Shown piece after piece: positions 338 to 13,046 of a stretch of 13,794 bases of DNA. The DNA lies in the NCBI GenBank assembly GCA_017612755.1, contig JAGAFH010000079.1, forward strand, positions 1 to 13,794. Reading direction: 5' to 3'. A program made the position numbers and the translations under genes. The notes beneath the pieces were generated by a model. It was given only the letters and a program-made list of their open reading frames with translations. It did not search any database and was not told the origin of the DNA. Within the stretch, counting starts at the first letter, position 1, and every line of letters begins with the position of its first letter. The stretch comes from Clostridiales bacterium (GTDB lineage: Bacteria; Bacillota; Clostridia; Saccharofermentanales; Saccharofermentanaceae).

Positions 338-365
338 TTGAACAATCATTCATATGTGTTATCAT
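338..365 (+). promoter_or_regulatory. Promoter P1 driving the riboswitch leader
   Basis: TTGAAC (338-343) and TATCAT (360-365) are separated by 16 bp, which predicts a start near 372, where the aptamer's first helix begins. The element is weaker than consensus. A 19-bp sequence repeated inverted downstream (339-357) lies almost wholly inside it, so a bound protein would cover the spacer. Confidence 0.5.
339..357 (+). repeat. 19-bp inverted repeat, upstream copy (candidate operator)
   Basis: TGAACAATCATTCATATGT is the exact reverse complement of 574-592, with the two copies about 216 bp apart. The core TGAA-6-TTCA is itself an imperfect dyad. This copy sits in the P1 spacer. No regulator gene is adjacent, so the binding protein is unknown. 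Confidence 0.75.
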
Positions 366-372
366 AACAGCA

Positions 373-470
373 GATATTAGGGAGTAGCTTGTACACTTTA
401 TGTGTGCGACATATATCGTCATCTCGGGACTATATCCCCGGTGTGTGTCTTTCGAAGCGAGACTTTTATT
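373..470 (+). promoter_or_regulatory. yybP-ykoY family (Mn2+) riboswitch aptamer
   Basis: The sequence carries the blocks I associate with this family, in the right order: GGGAGTAGC (380-388), CGTCATC (417-423) and GCGAGAC (457-463). The folds agree. P1 pairs 373-380 with 463-470 (with two U-U mismatches). P2 pairs 391-396 with 402-407 around a 5-nt loop. P3 pairs 408-415 with 442-449 and encloses CGTCATC and a hairpin, CGGG 425-428 with CCCG 437-440. Members of this family bind Mn2+ and usually switch on Mn exporters (MntP, TerC/YoaB-type proteins, P-type ATPases). Here the next gene is a MacB-like ABC ATPase. A strong terminator that reuses the aptamer's 3' strand follows, so an ON switch by antitermination is the natural reading. 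Recognition is from memory; a covariance-model search would settle it. Confidence 0.78.
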
Positions 471-503
471 GCATGTATCGATGCAACAAAGGTCCCGTTT
501 TTT
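458..503 (+). terminator. Riboswitch-controlled intrinsic terminator
   Basis: Positions 458-474 pair with 481-497 around the 6-nt loop 475-480. The 17-position stem has two A-C mismatches (460/495 and 468/487) and one G-U pair, and a run of six T follows (498-503). Its 5' arm contains most of GCGAGAC and the 3' strand of aptamer helix P1, so aptamer and terminator cannot form together. Confidence 0.82.
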
Positions 504-544
504 GTTGCCTCGAACATTGGAACAGTTGCATAAAAGCAACAAGG

Positions 545-573
545 TTGACACGTTAGTTTATGCTAACTACAAT
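545..573 (+). promoter_or_regulatory. Promoter P2 of the ABC transporter operon
   Basis: TTGACA (545-550) and TACAAT (568-573) are separated by exactly 17 bp, one base from the sigma-70/sigma-A consensus. The spacer holds a 5-bp dyad, GTTAG (552-556) and CTAAC (563-567), a candidate operator. Transcription would start near 580, inside the inverted repeat 574-605. P2 lies after the riboswitch terminator, so it would bypass it. Confidence 0.75.
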
Positions 574-605
574 ACATATGAATGATTGTTCATGTATTCA
601 TATGT
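574..605 (+). repeat. Inverted repeat at the P2 start site (candidate operator)
   Basis: ACATATGAAT (574-583) and ATTCATATGT (596-605) are perfect 10-bp inverted arms around 12 nt. The left 19 bp (574-592) is the reverse complement of the P1 copy at 339-357. The position just after the -10 suits a repressor. In RNA it would instead form a hairpin in the 5' leader. Confidence 0.7.
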
Positions 606-628
606 GAGAAAGACACGAGGTATTTGTT

Positions 629-1348
629 ATGTCAGAGAAAGAATTACAGGAATTTTTAAATGTATGTAATGTCTGGAAAGGCTTCGGCGAGGGGGACAGC
701 CGCCAGGAAGTCTTGAGAGGCATGGACTTTCAGGTTAGAAAGGGCGAGTTCTGTGTACTCTTAGGCCCCTCCGGATCCGGAAAGTCCACTCTTCTTAACA
801 TCATCGGCGGTATCGACAGTGCAGATGACGGTTACATTTCCATAGCCGGAGACAAGCTCCGGGACATGGACGAGAAGATGCTCACAAGGTACAGAAGAAA
901 GCATCTGGGCTATGTATTCCAGCTCTATAACCTGATCCCCAACCTGAACGTTAAAGAGAATATCGAAGTCGGAGCGTATCTTTCAGACGACCCGCTGGAC
1001 ATCGATGAGCTCTTAAACACATTGGGACTTTGGGAACACAGATATAAGCTTCCTAACCAGCTTTCAGGAGGACAGCAGCAGAGGACATCCATCGGAAGGG
1101 CCATCGTAAAGAACCCCGATATCCTTCTCTGCGACGAACCCACAGGCGCCCTGGACTACAACACATCAAAAGAGATACTTAAGCTCATCGAAGACGTAAA
1201 CCAAAAATACGGTAATACCATCATCATGGTCACCCACAACAATGCCATCCAGGATATGGCGGATCATGTCATAAAGCTCCGTGACGGAAAGGTCAGGAAG
1301 AACATCATCAACGAAAACAAGATCAGTGCGACAGAGCTTGACTGGTAA
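629..1348 (+). CDS. ABC transporter ATP-binding protein, MacB/LolD type
   Basis: This 239-residue ATPase has all the expected motifs: Walker A GPSGSGKST (46-54), Q-loop Gln98, signature LSGGQQQ (145-151), Walker B ILLCDEPTGALD (165-176) and H-loop His203. Its length and the LTRYRRKHLGYVFQLYNL stretch are typical of the LolD/MacB/FtsE group, whose ATPases drive FtsX-type permeases as mechanotransmission machines rather than simple pores. The ATG at 629 has CGAGG eight bases upstream. The permease begins 11 nt after the stop, so the two form one complex. Upstream lie P2 and a putative Mn2+ riboswitch. Substrate is not evident; the family's substrates include peptides, antibiotics and lipoproteins. 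Confidence 0.93.
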   Translation: MSEKELQEFLNVCNVWKGFGEGDSRQEVLRGMDFQVRKGEFCVLLGPSGSGKSTLLNIIGGIDSADDGYISIAGDKLRDMDEKMLTRYRRKHLGYVFQLYNLIPNLNVKENIEVGAYLSDDPLDIDELLNTLGLWEHRYKLPNQLSGGQQQRTSIGRAIVKNPDILLCDEPTGALDYNTSKEILKLIEDVNQKYGNTIIMVTHNNAIQDMADHVIKLRDGKVRKNIINENKISATELDW

Positions 1349-1359
1349 GGGGTGGTAAT

Positions 1360-3801
1360 ATGAGAAATCCAATAAATAAAAGGATCCTCCGCGACCTGGC
1401 GAAGGAGTGGAAGAGATATGTGGTGCTGTTCCTTCTCATGAGCTTCATGATAGGCACAGCATCGGGAATGTATGTTGCCAACGGCAGCATGCTCAAGGCG
1501 TTTGATGATTCCTACGACAAATACAACCTGGAAGACGGACACCTGGAGTTCAAGGAAGAACCTACAGAAGAACTCCTTGCGGCTATGCCCGGGAACATCA
1601 ACCTCTATGAGCAGTTCTACAAGGAAGTATCCGAGGTGTCTGACGGCAATGACAGTGCCGCCGTAAGGGTATTTAAGATCAGAGAGGACTTAAATATAGC
1701 ATGCGTTATCGAAGGCCGCCTGCCGGAAGGTACGGGAGAGATCGCCATCGACCGCATGCATGCGGACAACAACGGCATCTCCATAGGCGATACGATAACC
1801 GTAAACGGAACCGGACTTCAGGTGGTAGGATTTATCGCCCTCCCCGATTACAGCACTCTCTTCAAGAAGAATTCGGACATCATGTTTAATGCCATTGATT
1901 TTGATGTGGCCCTGGTAACAGATGATGCCTGGGAAGAACTGCCCGGCAACGTCAAATATCAGTATGCCTTCAGATACGATACGGCCCCCGCTTCCGTCTA
2001 CGAGGAAAAGGAATGGGGCGATGATCTGATGGAAAAGATAGCCGTCATCGCAGCTACCGGCGGCTACACCGATGACAAAGATGTGGCAGAAGAACTGGCA
2101 GATAATGTGGACGAATGGACTTCCACCCTGGAGAATATGGATGAGAATACATCTTTCGAAGACATCAGCGAAGCTATTGATAATCTGGAATCACTGGAGC
2201 CTTATGAGGACAATACAAATGAACTGATCGACTTCCTTCCGGGTTATGCCAATCAGGCCATACACTTCGCACCCGAAGACTTCGGATCAGACGTGGCGAT
2301 AATGGGAGTGCTCGTGTATGTATTCATTGCAGTGCTGGCCTTTGTTTTTGCCATAACCACATCCAACACCATCGTAAAAGAAGCCGCTGTCATAGGCACT
2401 CTCAGGGCCACAGGCTATACCAGGGGCGAGCTTACGGTGTACTACATGATGATGCCGGTAATAATTACGCTCCTGTCGGCTGTCACAGGTAATGTGCTGG
2501 GCTATACGATATTCAAAGACGCAGTCGTAAGCATGTACTACAATTCCTACAGTCTGCCAACATACGAGACTGTCTGGAACGCTGAGGCTTTCATCAAAAC
2601 GACCCTCATACCGCTGGTACTGATGTTCATCATCAACCTCTTCATCATCGTGAAGAAGATGAGACTGTCCCCCCTCAAGTTTCTCAGAAGGGATCTGTCT
2701 TCATCAAAGAGGAAAAAGGCTGTCAGGCTGCCGAGGATCAAGTTCTTCAGCCGTTTCCGCCTGAGGATCCTCCTGCAGAATCTCGGAAGTTATTTTGTGC
2801 TCTTTTTCGGAATAGCATTCGTCATGCTCCTGCTGTCCTTCTCCATTGGTCTTCCTGAGACACTGGATCACTATAAGCATGTCATGACCGAGGAACTCAT
2901 CTCTGAGTACCAGTACATCCTCATGGACTACGAGGATGAAGACGGAAATGTCATAACCACAGATAACGGGGATGCGGAGAAGTTCTCCATGAATACTCTG
3001 GAGACCATTGACGGCGTTCACGTGGGCGAAGGCATCACGATCTACGGCATCGAAGATGACAGCAAATACGTGAAGGCAGATCTCCCTGAAGACGGCGTGC
3101 TCGTATCGAGTGCATATGCACTCAAGTTCATGCTGCACGAAGGCGACACCATTACTTTAAAAGAGAAGTATTCAGATAAGACATATTCGTTTGTAGTCAG
3201 GGGCATATATAAATACATGGGCGGTCTTTCCGTATTCATGAGAAATGATGACTTCAACGAGTGCTTTGATCTTGATGATGATAGTTTCACCGGCTTCCTG
3301 TCGTCCGGGAAGATAGATGACATCGACGAAGATCTCATCTACACCATAGTAACCAGAGAAGATATCATGGCCCTGTCGATCCAGATCGATCACTCAATGG
3401 GCGATTACATGGACTATGTATCCTTCGCATGCCTTATCATCGGTATCCTGGTGATCTATCTGCTAACTAAGATCATCATCGAGAAGAATGCTGCATCCAT
3501 ATCGATGGTAAAGGTCTTAGGTTATGAGAACCGGGAGATCAACAGTCTCTACGTCAATCTGACCACCGCTATAGTGGTGATCTGTGCCATCGCAACTTCG
3601 TTACTGTCCGTTCTCGGTCTGACCGCCATCTTCTCAGTGATCATGTATACGATGTCAGGATGGTTCGAGGTATACGTAAGCTTTATCAGCATCCTTAAGA
3701 TGATAGGAATACTTCTTATCTCCTATTTCATAGTGTCGTTCTTCGACATCATGAGGATAAAGAAGATCCCTCTTACGGATGCCCTCAAGAACGTGGAATA
3801 A
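1360..3801 (+). CDS. FtsX/MacB-family ABC transporter permease
   Basis: An 813-residue permease with duplicated FtsX architecture. TM1 is at about 20-40, followed by a large extracytoplasmic domain (about 42-310). TM2-TM4 lie near 312-334, 360-385 and 413-432. A basic cytoplasmic linker (435-470) precedes TM5 (476-497). A second ectodomain (about 500-685) is followed by TM6-TM8 (686-708, 735-765, 776-795). Each half carries the FtsX hallmark after its domain (VIGTLRATGYTRGEL at 344-358; MVKVLGYENREI in the second half). Both ectodomains are rich in Asp/Glu, notably 238-292. The ATG at 1360 follows AAGGGGTGG. It pairs with the ATPase just upstream. The gene ends 1 nt before convergent queF. 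Substrate unknown. Confidence 0.9.
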   Translation: MRNPINKRILRDLAKEWKRYVVLFLLMSFMIGTASGMYVANGSMLKAFDDSYDKYNLEDGHLEFKEEPTEELLAAMPGNINLYEQFYKEVSEVSDGNDSAAVRVFKIREDLNIACVIEGRLPEGTGEIAIDRMHADNNGISIGDTITVNGTGLQVVGFIALPDYSTLFKKNSDIMFNAIDFDVALVTDDAWEELPGNVKYQYAFRYDTAPASVYEEKEWGDDLMEKIAVIAATGGYTDDKDVAEELADNVDEWTSTLENMDENTSFEDISEAIDNLESLEPYEDNTNELIDFLPGYANQAIHFAPEDFGSDVAIMGVLVYVFIAVLAFVFAITTSNTIVKEAAVIGTLRATGYTRGELTVYYMMMPVIITLLSAVTGNVLGYTIFKDAVVSMYYNSYSLPTYETVWNAEAFIKTTLIPLVLMFIINLFIIVKKMRLSPLKFLRRDLSSSKRKKAVRLPRIKFFSRFRLRILLQNLGSYFVLFFGIAFVMLLLSFSIGLPETLDHYKHVMTEELISEYQYILMDYEDEDGNVITTDNGDAEKFSMNTLETIDGVHVGEGITIYGIEDDSKYVKADLPEDGVLVSSAYALKFMLHEGDTITLKEKYSDKTYSFVVRGIYKYMGGLSVFMRNDDFNECFDLDDDSFTGFLSSGKIDDIDEDLIYTIVTREDIMALSIQIDHSMGDYMDYVSFACLIIGILVIYLLTKIIIEKNAASISMVKVLGYENREINSLYVNLTTAIVVICAIATSLLSVLGLTAIFSVIMYTMSGWFEVYVSFISILKMIGILLISYFIVSFFDIMRIKKIPLTDALKNVE

Positions 3802-10136: not shown

Positions 10137-10712
10137 ATGAACAAAGACGAAAAGCTCCAGCTTACGAAAGACAAGCTCCTTGAAGCGACATTACAGCTTA
10201 TGGAGAAGATGGAAGACCCCCTTCAGGTAACATCCAGGGAGATCGCCGATAAGGCAGGGACAAAGCCCTCCATGATAAACTACTGCTTCGGATCAAGAGA
10301 GAACCTGATCTACAGCGTCTTCATGAAGGAATACCTCGGATTTTTAAACGAGAAAAAGATACAGGAACTGATAAGTTCGGATATATCTCCCAAGGAACTT
10401 CTGAAAGAGATCCATTTTCTGGTGGCCTCCTGTCTTGTGGAGAACTACAAGTTTACAAAAGCCATAACGGGATACGTCCTCTTTAAGAGGGATCTGGGTA
10501 AGGAGTCCTTCAGCTTTCCCTATGTCATGAAACATTTTGACGGAAGAAAGACCGAAGAAGAATGTAAGCTGATAGCCTACGAACTATCCACCATGATGCA
10601 GATAATCATCTACAGAAAAGATGACATTAAAAATGACTTTGGAATAGATCTGGACGATCCCGCAGAGCTCAGAAGATTTGTGGATATGAGAGTCGATCTT
10701 CTTATGGATTAA
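10137..10712 (+). CDS. TetR/AcrR-family transcriptional regulator
   Basis: A 191-residue regulator. The N-terminal 60 residues form the TetR DNA-binding domain: helix 1 DKLLEATLQLMEKM (12-25), then the helix-turn-helix VTSREIADKAGTKPSMINYCFGSRENLIYSV (31-61), whose NYCFGSRENL is the usual 'YYHFGSKEDL' end of the motif. The C-terminal part (62-191) is all-helical and specific to the family member, with three clustered aromatic segments that could form the ligand pocket. GAGGTGG stands about 4 nt before the ATG. The next gene starts 9 nt after the stop, so the two form an operon, and the 18-bp palindrome at the promoter is the likely operator. The ligand is unknown; it may be a substrate of the downstream enzyme. 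Confidence 0.92.
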   Translation: MNKDEKLQLTKDKLLEATLQLMEKMEDPLQVTSREIADKAGTKPSMINYCFGSRENLIYSVFMKEYLGFLNEKKIQELISSDISPKELLKEIHFLVASCLVENYKFTKAITGYVLFKRDLGKESFSFPYVMKHFDGRKTEEECKLIAYELSTMMQIIIYRKDDIKNDFGIDLDDPAELRRFVDMRVDLLMD

Positions 10713-10721
10713 GGTACTGAT

Positions 10722-13046
10722 ATGAGGTATGTTTTCCCTTTAAAGGATATTCCTTCAGACAGGCTCTCCTTTGCCGGCGGTAAGGCAAAGTCCCTGTCTC
10801 ATATGATGAACAATACTAAACTCCACATCCCGGAAGGGTATGTGATACTTGCCGATGCCTTCGAAAACGGAAAGCTCCGTTCTGACGCTGCCGAAGAGAT
10901 AGTGGCGGTCTCTATGTCCCTCAACGGAAGATATACTTATGCGGTCCGTTCCTCTGCCGTTAACGAAGACGGGGACAAAGCCTCTTTTGCAGGACAGTAC
11001 GAAACCATTACCGATGTGGCTGCCGATGATGTTATAGATGCAGTAAAGCATGTGGCAGACTCCATCGGAAGCGCCCGGGTAAAAGGATATGAAGAAAGCT
11101 TCTCCCGGGAGGATATGGGTATCGGCATCGTAATCCAGAGATTTGTAAGACCTCAGTTTGCAGGCGTTATATTCACCTCCGACGCCATCACCGGAAAAGA
11201 TGAAAAGATCATCGGAAATTACGTTAAAGGCGAAGGCGAACAGCTTGTTTCCGGATCATCTAACGCGGAGATATTTACCATAAATGCCATAAAAGGGACT
11301 TATGAGGGAAACCCTGAACTTAAAAGTTTCGGCAGGAAGCTTTGGAAAGCTTCCCTTTCCATCCGTCATCTCTATGGCATGCCCATGGATATCGAGTGGG
11401 CCGTCTCGGACGGAAAGCTCTATATCCTTCAGGCCCGCCCCATAACCACCCTTCAAAGGCTCGATATGGACAGCTATGACATAAACGGAACAAGATCCGG
11501 ATATAAGCTCCTGACCAGGACAAATGTAGGCGAGATCTTTATGAAGCCCGTCTCCCCCATGACCTTCAGCGTACTGGAGATGATCAACGGCTTTCTTGCT
11601 CTTCCCGACTGGCTCGACAATATCTGCGGCCAGCCCTATATGAACATCTCCGTTATGTGTTCCGCCTTTGTGGCTTTCGGAAAGTCCGAAGAAAAAGCCT
11701 TTGATGCCATAAAGGATCTGGTAGGCAATATCCCGGAAGGGACTTCCGTCCCCATTTCCCCCTTTGATAAAAAGGGTTTTATGAAGCAGATGAAGACTCT
11801 CTTCTTCCCCAAGGAAAAGACTAAGCTTACCAAAAAAGAAAAACTGGAAATGGTGAGGGATATGCCGGATCTTTGCAGAAGGACTATCGAAGAGATCCAT
11901 AAGATAGAAGATAACGGACATCTTCTTGCCCTGTGGGAGAACAGGCTGATCCCCGATATAAAGAACTGCTTTGCCTCCATACTGGGAACATGCGGTACAT
12001 CCATGGTGCCCCTGTTCAGTTCCCGCAATAAGATCACGAAGATCGCCGGAAGCGATATGGCCAACAGGCTCCTGGGAGGATCATTGGGAGTCATCGACTG
12101 CATGAAGCCCCTCCTTCTTCTGGAGGATGTTATCGAAGGCAGGATCACCAAAGAAGAATATATAAGATCCTGTGGACAAAGATCGGTCAACGAGATGGAG
12201 CTTATGGCTCCCCGTCCCTATGAGGATCCCGCCTTCCCCGACAGTGTTATCGAAGAGCACAAAAATAGCGGCACTGACCTTCACAAAATGCTGGAAAAAC
12301 AGCAGGGTCTTTTCGATGAAGCCCTGGCTGAATTTAAGTCCCTCTATCCTTCAAAGAGCAGATGGATAGACAAGGAGATATCAAGGTTCGCCCACGCCAA
12401 CAGTTTCCGGGAGGATATAAGGAGCAAGGGCGTATGGCTCTTTTCCGCCTTCAGGGAGTTTATCCTTCAGGCAGGAAAGATAAACTGTCTGGGAGACGAC
12501 ATATTCTTCCTTACCTTTAATGAACTCTTCGACCTTCTTAATGGAAACACTTCCTCCACGGGCTTTATCCCTGAACGGAAGAAGACTTATGACAAATATC
12601 TTGAATATCCTTCTTTCCCCAATCTCATCCTGGGAAGGTTCGATCCTGACGAATGGACCGGAGATCCGGCCCGCCGGAGCGACTGTTATATTGCCGATAT
12701 GGAGACAAAGGATACTGATCTGTCTTTCGATGTAAACGGATTTCCCGGAGCGGCCGGGATCGTAACCGGAAAGGTCAGGGTGATCACTTCTCCTGATGAT
12801 ATAGATCAACTGGAAAAAGGCGACATCCTTGTCACTGTTGCTACAAATATCGGCTGGACACTGGCCTTCCCCAAGGTCTCCGCCATCATCACCGATATAG
12901 GAGCCCCCCTGTCCCACGCAGCCATCGTGGCAAGGGAATTCGGGATTCCGGCTGTAGTAGGGTGCGGAAATGCAACCACTGTCCTTAAGACCGGAGACGT
13001 GATCGAAGTAGACGGATCAAAGGGAACTGTTACGAAGCTGGGTTAA
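10722..13046 (+). CDS. PEP/pyruvate-binding phosphotransferase, rifampin phosphotransferase-like
   Basis: A 774-residue enzyme with two recognisable ends. Residues 1-245 are a PPDK-type ATP-grasp domain: FAGGKAKSL (17-25), AVRSSAVNEDG (74-84), FAGQYET (89-95), IVIQRFVRPQFAGVIFTSD (136-154) and LQARPIT (236-242). Residues 673-770 are the mobile phosphohistidine domain: AAGIVTGKVRV, then TDIGAPLSHAAIVARE with catalytic His732 and IPAVVGCGNAT. The PEP-binding TIM barrel found at the C-terminus of PEP synthase and PPDK is absent, so this is not a central-metabolism enzyme. The ATP-grasp, substrate domain, His domain order is that of rifampin phosphotransferase (Rph). The middle (about 250-670) should bind the acceptor; I cannot tell if it is rifampin. 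AAGG stands 7 nt before the ATG. It is cotranscribed with tetR. Confidence 0.87.
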   Translation: MRYVFPLKDIPSDRLSFAGGKAKSLSHMMNNTKLHIPEGYVILADAFENGKLRSDAAEEIVAVSMSLNGRYTYAVRSSAVNEDGDKASFAGQYETITDVAADDVIDAVKHVADSIGSARVKGYEESFSREDMGIGIVIQRFVRPQFAGVIFTSDAITGKDEKIIGNYVKGEGEQLVSGSSNAEIFTINAIKGTYEGNPELKSFGRKLWKASLSIRHLYGMPMDIEWAVSDGKLYILQARPITTLQRLDMDSYDINGTRSGYKLLTRTNVGEIFMKPVSPMTFSVLEMINGFLALPDWLDNICGQPYMNISVMCSAFVAFGKSEEKAFDAIKDLVGNIPEGTSVPISPFDKKGFMKQMKTLFFPKEKTKLTKKEKLEMVRDMPDLCRRTIEEIHKIEDNGHLLALWENRLIPDIKNCFASILGTCGTSMVPLFSSRNKITKIAGSDMANRLLGGSLGVIDCMKPLLLLEDVIEGRITKEEYIRSCGQRSVNEMELMAPRPYEDPAFPDSVIEEHKNSGTDLHKMLEKQQGLFDEALAEFKSLYPSKSRWIDKEISRFAHANSFREDIRSKGVWLFSAFREFILQAGKINCLGDDIFFLTFNELFDLLNGNTSSTGFIPERKKTYDKYLEYPSFPNLILGRFDPDEWTGDPARRSDCYIADMETKDTDLSFDVNGFPGAAGIVTGKVRVITSPDDIDQLEKGDILVTVATNIGWTLAFPKVSAIITDIGAPLSHAAIVAREFGIPAVVGCGNATTVLKTGDVIEVDGSKGTVTKLG

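Follow-up and report, generated by a model that had tools for sequence, protein, structure and literature searches.

A yybP-ykoY-type leader paired with an FtsX-type ABC exporter in Clostridia, with a candidate role in manganese homeostasis

Introduction

The closest described relatives of the leader analysed here are the yybP-ykoY riboswitches of L. lactis (yoaB) and X. oryzae. It has in common with them the block GGGAGUAGC, a ligand adenosine in the internal loop L3, a GCGAGAC-like block, the helix arrangement P1-P2-P3 and a terminator that shares the 3' strand of helix P1. In the solved structures, one L3 adenosine confers Mn2+ specificity through its N7; it is A41 of the L. lactis loop UCA(41)AUUC and A48 of the X. 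oryzae loop ACA(48)UACU, and when it is replaced by U the stably docked state induced by Mn2+ is lost (PMC6754395, PMC9190785). The L. lactis member is described as an ON switch (PMC9190785), and a review on C. difficile describes Mn riboswitches as OFF switches (PMC11477304). The Mn riboswitch of S. pneumoniae mgtA, which we liken to the present leader by its description, is also a three-way junction with yybP-ykoY structure (PMC9495176); its target is a P-type ATPase, unlike the ABC pair found here.

The main types of Mn efflux protein are CDF, MntP, UPF0016 and P-type ATPases, according to PMC13274385, in which neither of the two predicted switches showed a drop in reads. One CaCA protein, whose gene follows a yybP-ykoY switch in Bordetella pertussis, acts as a Mn exporter where that gene is functional (PMC8546581). 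No ABC exporter named as a yybP-ykoY target was found in the open-access literature, the scope of which excludes the primary target lists of 2015 and 2019.

We analysed a stretch of 13 794 nucleotides (hereafter the window) from a Clostridiales bacterium of the Saccharofermentanaceae. It is a whole contig (JAGAFH010000079.1) of a draft genome of 1.83 Mb in 240 contigs that is 70 per cent complete. A reading of the letters without database searches (the sequence-only reading) had proposed a yybP-ykoY ON switch ahead of a MacB-like ABC exporter. Judging from the sequence comparisons below, the leader is a genuine and conserved yybP-ykoY-type riboswitch, and the ABC exporter is its commonest target in this group. 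The window differs from the L. lactis and X. oryzae members in the absence of helix P4, a score below the gathering score of the family model, and the ABC exporter as target.

Conserved blocks and fold of the aptamer

The yybP-ykoY-type aptamer lies at 371-473 on the + strand, as supported by the match to the Rfam model RF00080, by covariation and by a family-specific model. Its three ordered blocks are where the sequence-only reading had placed them: the L1 block GGGAGUAGC at 380-388, also seen in the alignment of 100 leaders, the block AUCGUCAUCUCGGG at 415-428, and the 3' block GCGAGAC at 457-463, which closes L1 and helix P1. The window thus carries GGGAGUA at 380-386 and GAGAC at 459-463; all 100 aligned leaders keep GGGAGUA and AGAC unchanged, and 98 of them have G directly before AGAC. 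The minimum-energy fold of 366-505 (-47.6 kcal/mol, z -4.83) was matched by none of 200 shuffles.

Helix P1.1 has its 5' strand at 374-380 and its partner strand at 463-469, with two U-U mismatches. Helix P2 together with its loop spans 391-407, and helix P3, with the internal loop L3, occupies 408-449. The consistent P1-P2-P3 fold claimed earlier is supported by covariation and needs correction on two points: it is a three-way junction without P4, and its helix P1 contains the two mismatches. In the window, P3 is followed by a 5-nt linker (450-454) and there is no P4 helix or four-way junction; the genus's MntP leaders (alignment A2) likewise show no P4, and neither do the two L3 types described below. 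Since a three-way-junction member has been described, the S. pneumoniae mgtA switch (PMC9495176), the missing P4 is compatible with yybP-ykoY membership.

Covariation

In group A, composed of 14 close leaders (13 ahead of ABC genes and one ahead of a CaCA gene), 13 of the 31 pairs are changed on both sides and 90.4 per cent of cells are paired, which was equalled by none of 500 shuffles. When the partners were slid by 1-3 columns, pairing dropped to 32-61 per cent. Each of the five helices has both-side changes, including all six pairs of helix P2, and the group-A covariation extends to helix P3; the number of further pair types is unexceptional (98 of 500 shuffles had as many). Helix P1.1 is the weakest, with 71.6 per cent of cells paired, and the columns of the window's two U-U mismatches are unpaired in 12 and 13 of the 14 rows. 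The group-A pair counts are lowered because the MAFFT alignment (A1) apparently misplaces row G030 and helix P2 of G027 and G086.

Both-side changes affect 22 of 26 pairs in a mixed-target set of 29 leaders, and 23 of 26 pairs (none of 500 shuffles) in an order-wide set of 100 leaders, or 92 distinct rows; the latter alignment was obtained by fitting to the model, which biases it towards the structure. Six of the 106 loci known in the order (L136, L142, L158, L160, L161 and L164) are excluded from this set; two of these hits (G141 and G157:C88) are devoid of GGAGTA. The shuffles ignore relatedness and the slid control preserves it. Covariation in homologous leaders, the lack of which would have counted against the sequence-only reading, is therefore found above both kinds of control and includes P1, P2 and P3, P1.1 being the weakest. 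Together with the blocks and the fold, it confirms the overall assignment to a yybP-ykoY-type leader.

Relation to the Rfam family

When all 4227 families were scanned, RF00080 matched the window at 367-494 with 21.8 bits (E 0.012; E 4.0e-4 in a search of the window's own genome). The comparison with RF00080 that had been suggested thus gave a match, but one below the gathering score of 45. None of 148 genomes, the window's own included, reaches this score, and this applies to MntP leaders too; at E<=0.05, 40 of the 148 have a match. The 29 loci L033-L061 comprise 17 ahead of MntP, nine ahead of an ABC ATPase, two ahead of a P-type ATPase and one (L055) with no such gene, and locus L034, which precedes MntP, has 32.3 bits. 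RF00080 matches none of the 10 Lachnospiraceae-titled ABC leaders given, none of 14 class loci and two of eight further loci; seven of these eight carry the aptamer according to our model R1, the remaining one (L074) being an MntP locus without an R1 match. The gathering score is a detection threshold and not a biological feature, and we claim homology, not formal Rfam membership. To go by these leaders, RF00080 at its curated threshold overlooks a conserved branch.

The metal site

The L3 adenosine column, A421 in the window, is A in 29 of 29 leaders of one alignment and in 100 of 100 of another, which draws on 100 of the 106 loci. Because the window has UCAUCUC at 419-425, A421 aligns as the equivalent of the Mn2+-ligating A41 of L. 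lactis and A48 of X. oryzae. There are two L3 types among the 92 distinct rows: in 19, including the window's group, L3 is closed by G-C, the L. lactis arrangement, and in 73 by A-U, that of X. oryzae. The window's loop (UCA...C) is of the former type, and the MntP leaders of its genus in alignment A2 (ACAUACU) are of the latter.

By this equivalence and by analogy with the studied members, Mn2+ is the probable ligand. That the aptamer senses Ca2+ or another divalent metal instead is unlikely in our estimation. After the ligand adenosine, the window's L3 does deviate, with UCAUCUC as against UCAAUUC in L. lactis and ACAUACU in X. oryzae, and the three-way-junction aptamer of S. pneumoniae mgtA binds Ca2+ more tightly than Mn2+, yet Mn2+ activates it more strongly (PMC9495176). 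Against another ion stand the ligand adenosine and the L1 block, both invariant in 100 of 100 leaders, and the core shared with MntP leaders of the same genus; moreover, the Na+ riboswitch (DUF1646 motif) is not among the seven matches obtained for the window up to E 10.

Terminator and switch mechanism

The U6 terminator sharing the aptamer's 3' strand, as described in the sequence-only reading, is present at 454-503 (+ strand) by fold and alignment. Its stem covers 454-501 and its U-run 498-503, and the strand 457-475 is common to helix P1 and the 5' arm of the terminator. A simple terminator scan lists a hairpin at 424-441 instead of the one at 454-503. This expression platform built on the 3' strand of P1 has modest covariation: 92.7 per cent of cells of the terminator helix are paired and 3 of 19 pairs are changed on both sides, a result equalled by 26 of 500 shuffles. 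A terminator-like hairpin follows 98 of 103 classified leaders (ABC, 50 of 53; MntP, 39 of 39; P-type ATPase, 9 of 10; CaCA, 0 of 1), its 5' arm starting at most 14 nt from the start of GCGAGAC in 57 of the 103. Most ABC leaders of the A-U type have the terminator further downstream, with a hairpin that would compete with P1 in between (one example was folded).

In silico, the terminator fold of the window has -45.3 kcal/mol and the P1 fold -35.5 kcal/mol. Forcing P1 costs 9.8 kcal/mol, and the ligand would therefore need to act during transcription. The layout supports an ON switch without proving it, and the studied family members, together with the shared strand, make this the expected direction. 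The RNA would start at promoter P1 (see below). Without ligand, strand 457-475 would fold into the terminator 454-503 and transcription would stop. Once Mn2+ sits between L1 and L3, with A421 as a ligand, that strand would be retained by helix P1, the terminator would not form and the polymerase would continue into the ABC genes, so that expression of the exporter would rise at high Mn2+.

We consider it likely, with good confidence, that 371-503, which carries the blocks and the covariation-supported fold of a yybP-ykoY-type aptamer, is a Mn2+-activated antitermination switch raising the ABC genes at 629-3801. The sequence, the covariation, the shared strand and the recurrent pairing with these genes, on which this explanation is based, are observed.

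Promoters and palindromes

Two promoter-like sites flank the switch. Promoter P1 (TTGAAC-16-TATCAT, 338-365, + strand, 9 of 12 matches) is the putative start just 5' of the aptamer, and a palindrome, CACTTGAACAATCATTCATATG, of possible operator function covers its -35 element (335-356). Promoter P2 (TTGACA-17-TACAAT, 545-573, + strand, 11 of 12 matches) lies 3' of the terminator; it contains the palindrome GTTAGTTTATGCTAAC in its spacer (552-567) and is followed directly after the -10 element by another operator-like palindrome (575-596). Promoter-like sites are not enriched over shuffles (four found, 6.0 expected), so the case for both promoters is one of conservation. By lax criteria without a computed background, a P1-like site occurs in 11 of 13 group-A leaders, a P2-like site between terminator and ATPase in 13 of 13, and the palindrome CATATGA..TCATATG, searched by pattern, in 11 of 13. 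The window's copy of this palindrome has two mismatches, and the same element is found at the window's promoter P1. These P1 and P2 sites are the two best (two-mismatch) matches in the window's own, 70 per cent complete genome, where six sites are found with up to three mismatches, as against one for the reversed control pattern. From the sequence, one repressor would act on both promoters.

It had been objected that promoter P2 could supply the ABC genes independently. For the window's subgroup this caveat stands: P2 can, to judge by the 13 of 13 leaders, bypass the switch, and together with the operator-like palindromes it would provide a Mn-independent input. It hardly applies to 29 of the 53 ABC loci known in the order, where 53-126 nt separate the aptamer from the start of the ATPase gene. 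In 27 of them this short gap includes a terminator-like hairpin, and promoter P1 with the switch therefore seems the sole route there. The extreme form of the objection would make the leader an attenuator that is decaying or blind to its ligand, with promoter P2 and a repressor in real control of the ABC genes. We regard this as very unlikely. The conserved P2-like site and palindrome, the restriction of the genome's best operator matches to this locus and the weakness of P1.1 would fit it, but both-side changes in all five helices and the invariant metal core argue for selection on the aptamer, as do the 29 loci with the short gap.

Targets of the switch in related genomes

Model R1 was built from 29 leaders, the window's among them; of the 106 places found in the order, 29 were used in training and 77 were not. 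At E<=1e-3, it detects the aptamer in 56 of 85 genomes of the genus, 72 of 115 of the family and 86 of 188 of the order. According to a tblastn panel, the first downstream gene at the 106 places is an ABC ATPase in 53 cases, MntP in 39, a P-type ATPase in 10 and a CaCA protein in one. Three places received no panel assignment: G067:C15, G111, which lies at the end of its contig, and G157:C88, whose match has only 32.6 bits. Forty-seven of the 53 ATPases are 74-100% identical to that of the window and six are 54-65% identical; a permease gene lies behind 52 of them (the exception is G017). The 73 places of the genus divide into 46 ABC, 25 MntP, one CaCA and one unassigned.

Searched from the other side, the 80 best of 136 ATPase loci include 34 with an R1 match (E<=0.01), all on the + strand and 86-433 nt upstream of the ATPase match. 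They include 16 of 28 loci in L176-L203, several of which belong to the same genomes as in the order search and are not independent, and 18 of 52 in L204-L255. Twelve of these 18 are titled Lachnospiraceae and four Eubacterium, titles absent from model R1; one of the 18 (L222) is without the GGAGTA block. In several Lachnospiraceae-titled loci, the downstream sequence includes a U-run and a strand able to pair with GCGAGAC. The gene order behind the leader, put forward earlier as a point for comparison, thus recurs in relatives, at 53 of 106 order places and in Lachnospiraceae-titled loci. In named records, relatives of the ATPase come mostly from rumen or gut Clostridia (Saccharofermentans, Mageeibacillus, Clostridiales) and Lachnospiraceae. 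Among 30 orthologous ABC loci, including the window, the motif lies within 420 nt in 20 and further upstream in L018; nine have no aptamer by pattern or by the unfiltered model R2.

A sample of 391 genomes of the class was searched with model R2 at E<=1e-5, scoring nine candidates per genome, and gave 103 places in 90 genomes, four of which (G000, G010, G018 and G080) were left out as already counted. The remaining 99 are assigned to CaCA (29), P-type ATPase (26) and MntP (13), with 31 unassigned by the panel, some of whose matches are partial; the ABC pair follows none of the 99. This search misses much, since G074, G045, G005, G048 and G029, with known ABC switches, came out empty. Given these misses, the ABC target looks restricted to few lineages, as far as can be read from the sequences.

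Several other contexts were encountered. Oxaloacetate decarboxylase beta-subunit (OAD_beta-like) genes follow the aptamer at about 20 of the 99 class places (20 tblastn hits), among them L267, L268, L269, L271, L280, L297, L303, L310, L324, L333, L339 and L343, and account for most of the 31 unassigned; PF03977 was found in the one tested. This subunit would be an unexpected target of a similar aptamer. The Na+ riboswitch was considered because of these genes, and the literature match for yybP-ykoY with oxaloacetate decarboxylase concerns Na+ riboswitches; that motif has no match in 14 class loci at E<=0.01. In the same 14 loci, RF02617 (Streptococcus sRNA 10) matches L268, L310 and L275 below its cut-off and may be the same RNA class. 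At L131, L111, L112, L113 and L132, a second type of ABC ATPase, 54-58% identical to the window's, starts 241-250 nt after the aptamer. Aptamer-like matches at L345, L359 and L360 (E 1e-8 to 1e-6) precede exported pectate lyase-like genes, named by eye; they are due either to chance or to a new context. Finally, G010:C3 has a group-A aptamer (L062:3766-3866, - strand) upstream of a gene for a CaCA exchanger (PF01699), with QueT and QueF behind that gene, and the ABC orthologue of that genome (L011) is without aptamer; in the window, QueF and QueT come directly after the ABC pair on the opposite strand. This arrangement suggests that the switch changed partner.

Retention of MntP

The MntP exporters behind yybP-ykoY switches, which take up 25 of the 73 genus places, are under the same aptamer family and belong to an unrelated transporter family. 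As one explanation of the unusual target, it had been supposed that a classical target was lost and the switch reassigned. A simple loss of MntP can be dismissed: the window's own genome keeps an MntP gene, without a credible upstream aptamer, and 15 genomes of the genus carry both an MntP and an ABC switch. The ABC pair is for these reasons better seen as an added target. The MntP loci of five group-A genomes, the window's own included (L075, L086, L095, L096 and L099), show no aptamer by pattern, and unfiltered R2 gives only a 15.6-bit match (E 0.079) in L099, on the strand opposite MntP.

The ABC exporter

The first gene after the leader (629-1348, + strand) codes for an ABC transporter ATPase of 239 aa (PF00005, 118.5 bits, cut-off 25) and the second (1360-3801, + strand) for a permease of 813 aa with two PF02687 stretches, scoring 66.1 bits (cut-off 25.5), and a marginal MacB_PCD match. 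The pair has the FtsX-type permease and ABC ATPase partner of an FtsX-domain exporter. Like MacB, LolCD and FtsEX, it combines FtsX permease domains with an ATPase of the MacB-LolD-FtsE group; it differs from them in its separate ATPase, its double-FtsX permease and an ATPase score far below the MacB, LolD and FtsE cut-offs. A MacB macrolide exporter was rejected, the ATPase scoring 189.4 of 966 bits for PRK10535 and being unfused to the permease. No NCBIfam model reaches its cut-off among the 25 of 190 matches listed for the ATPase, and none matches the permease at E<=0.001. Of the earlier description as an FtsX/MacB-type ATPase and permease, the FtsX-type ABC pair stands and 'MacB' is loose, given the separate genes, the two FtsX stretches and the absence of a listed NCBIfam match at cut-off. 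The ATPase also has PADLOC matches, which were disregarded as reflecting general similarity among ATPases. Fifteen permeases share, among others, the invariant residues D131, H134, D307 and D311, for which we make no claim of a metal site. Elsewhere in the window (10137-13046), a TetR-like gene adjoins one that resembles PEP synthase and has PPDK_N and PEP-utilizer domains.

As a rule, the MacB/FtsX fold is linked to other substrates or to force transmission, and no ABC exporter moving Mn2+ was found in the literature searched. It is a substantial possibility, if short of probable, that the same switch governs an exporter that does not move Mn, with Mn2+ as a signal of, for example, oxidative or envelope stress; the FtsX-type pair would then export a peptide, a lipid or another compound, or pass force to envelope enzymes. 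This alternative concerns the exporter and is compatible with the switch proposed above. It agrees with the FtsX/MacB-like families of the proteins, with no metal-export model at cut-off among the matches listed and no relative of the permease by sequence in the PDB, and with the operator-like palindrome retained by some orthologues that are without the switch. On the other side, the other identified targets in the order, at 50 of the 106 places, are cation transporters (39 MntP, 10 P-type ATPases and one CaCA).

Significance

Under the Mn2+-activated switch that we favour, the exporter would relieve metal or metal-related stress. We tentatively propose, as a reading that falls just short of probable, that the FtsX-type ABC exporter gives Mn homeostasis in rumen Clostridia a new, ATP-driven arm, which a divergent, P4-less yybP-ykoY branch overlooked by current Rfam thresholds switches on. 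Targets of yybP-ykoY have exposed unsuspected Mn exporters before, as with the CaCA protein annotated as a calcium antiporter (PMC8546581). Since the ABC pair is the commonest target in one order, the RNA gives a direct hint at the function of the exporter, and, if the proposal is true, an ATP-driven exporter would be added to the Mn-control kit.
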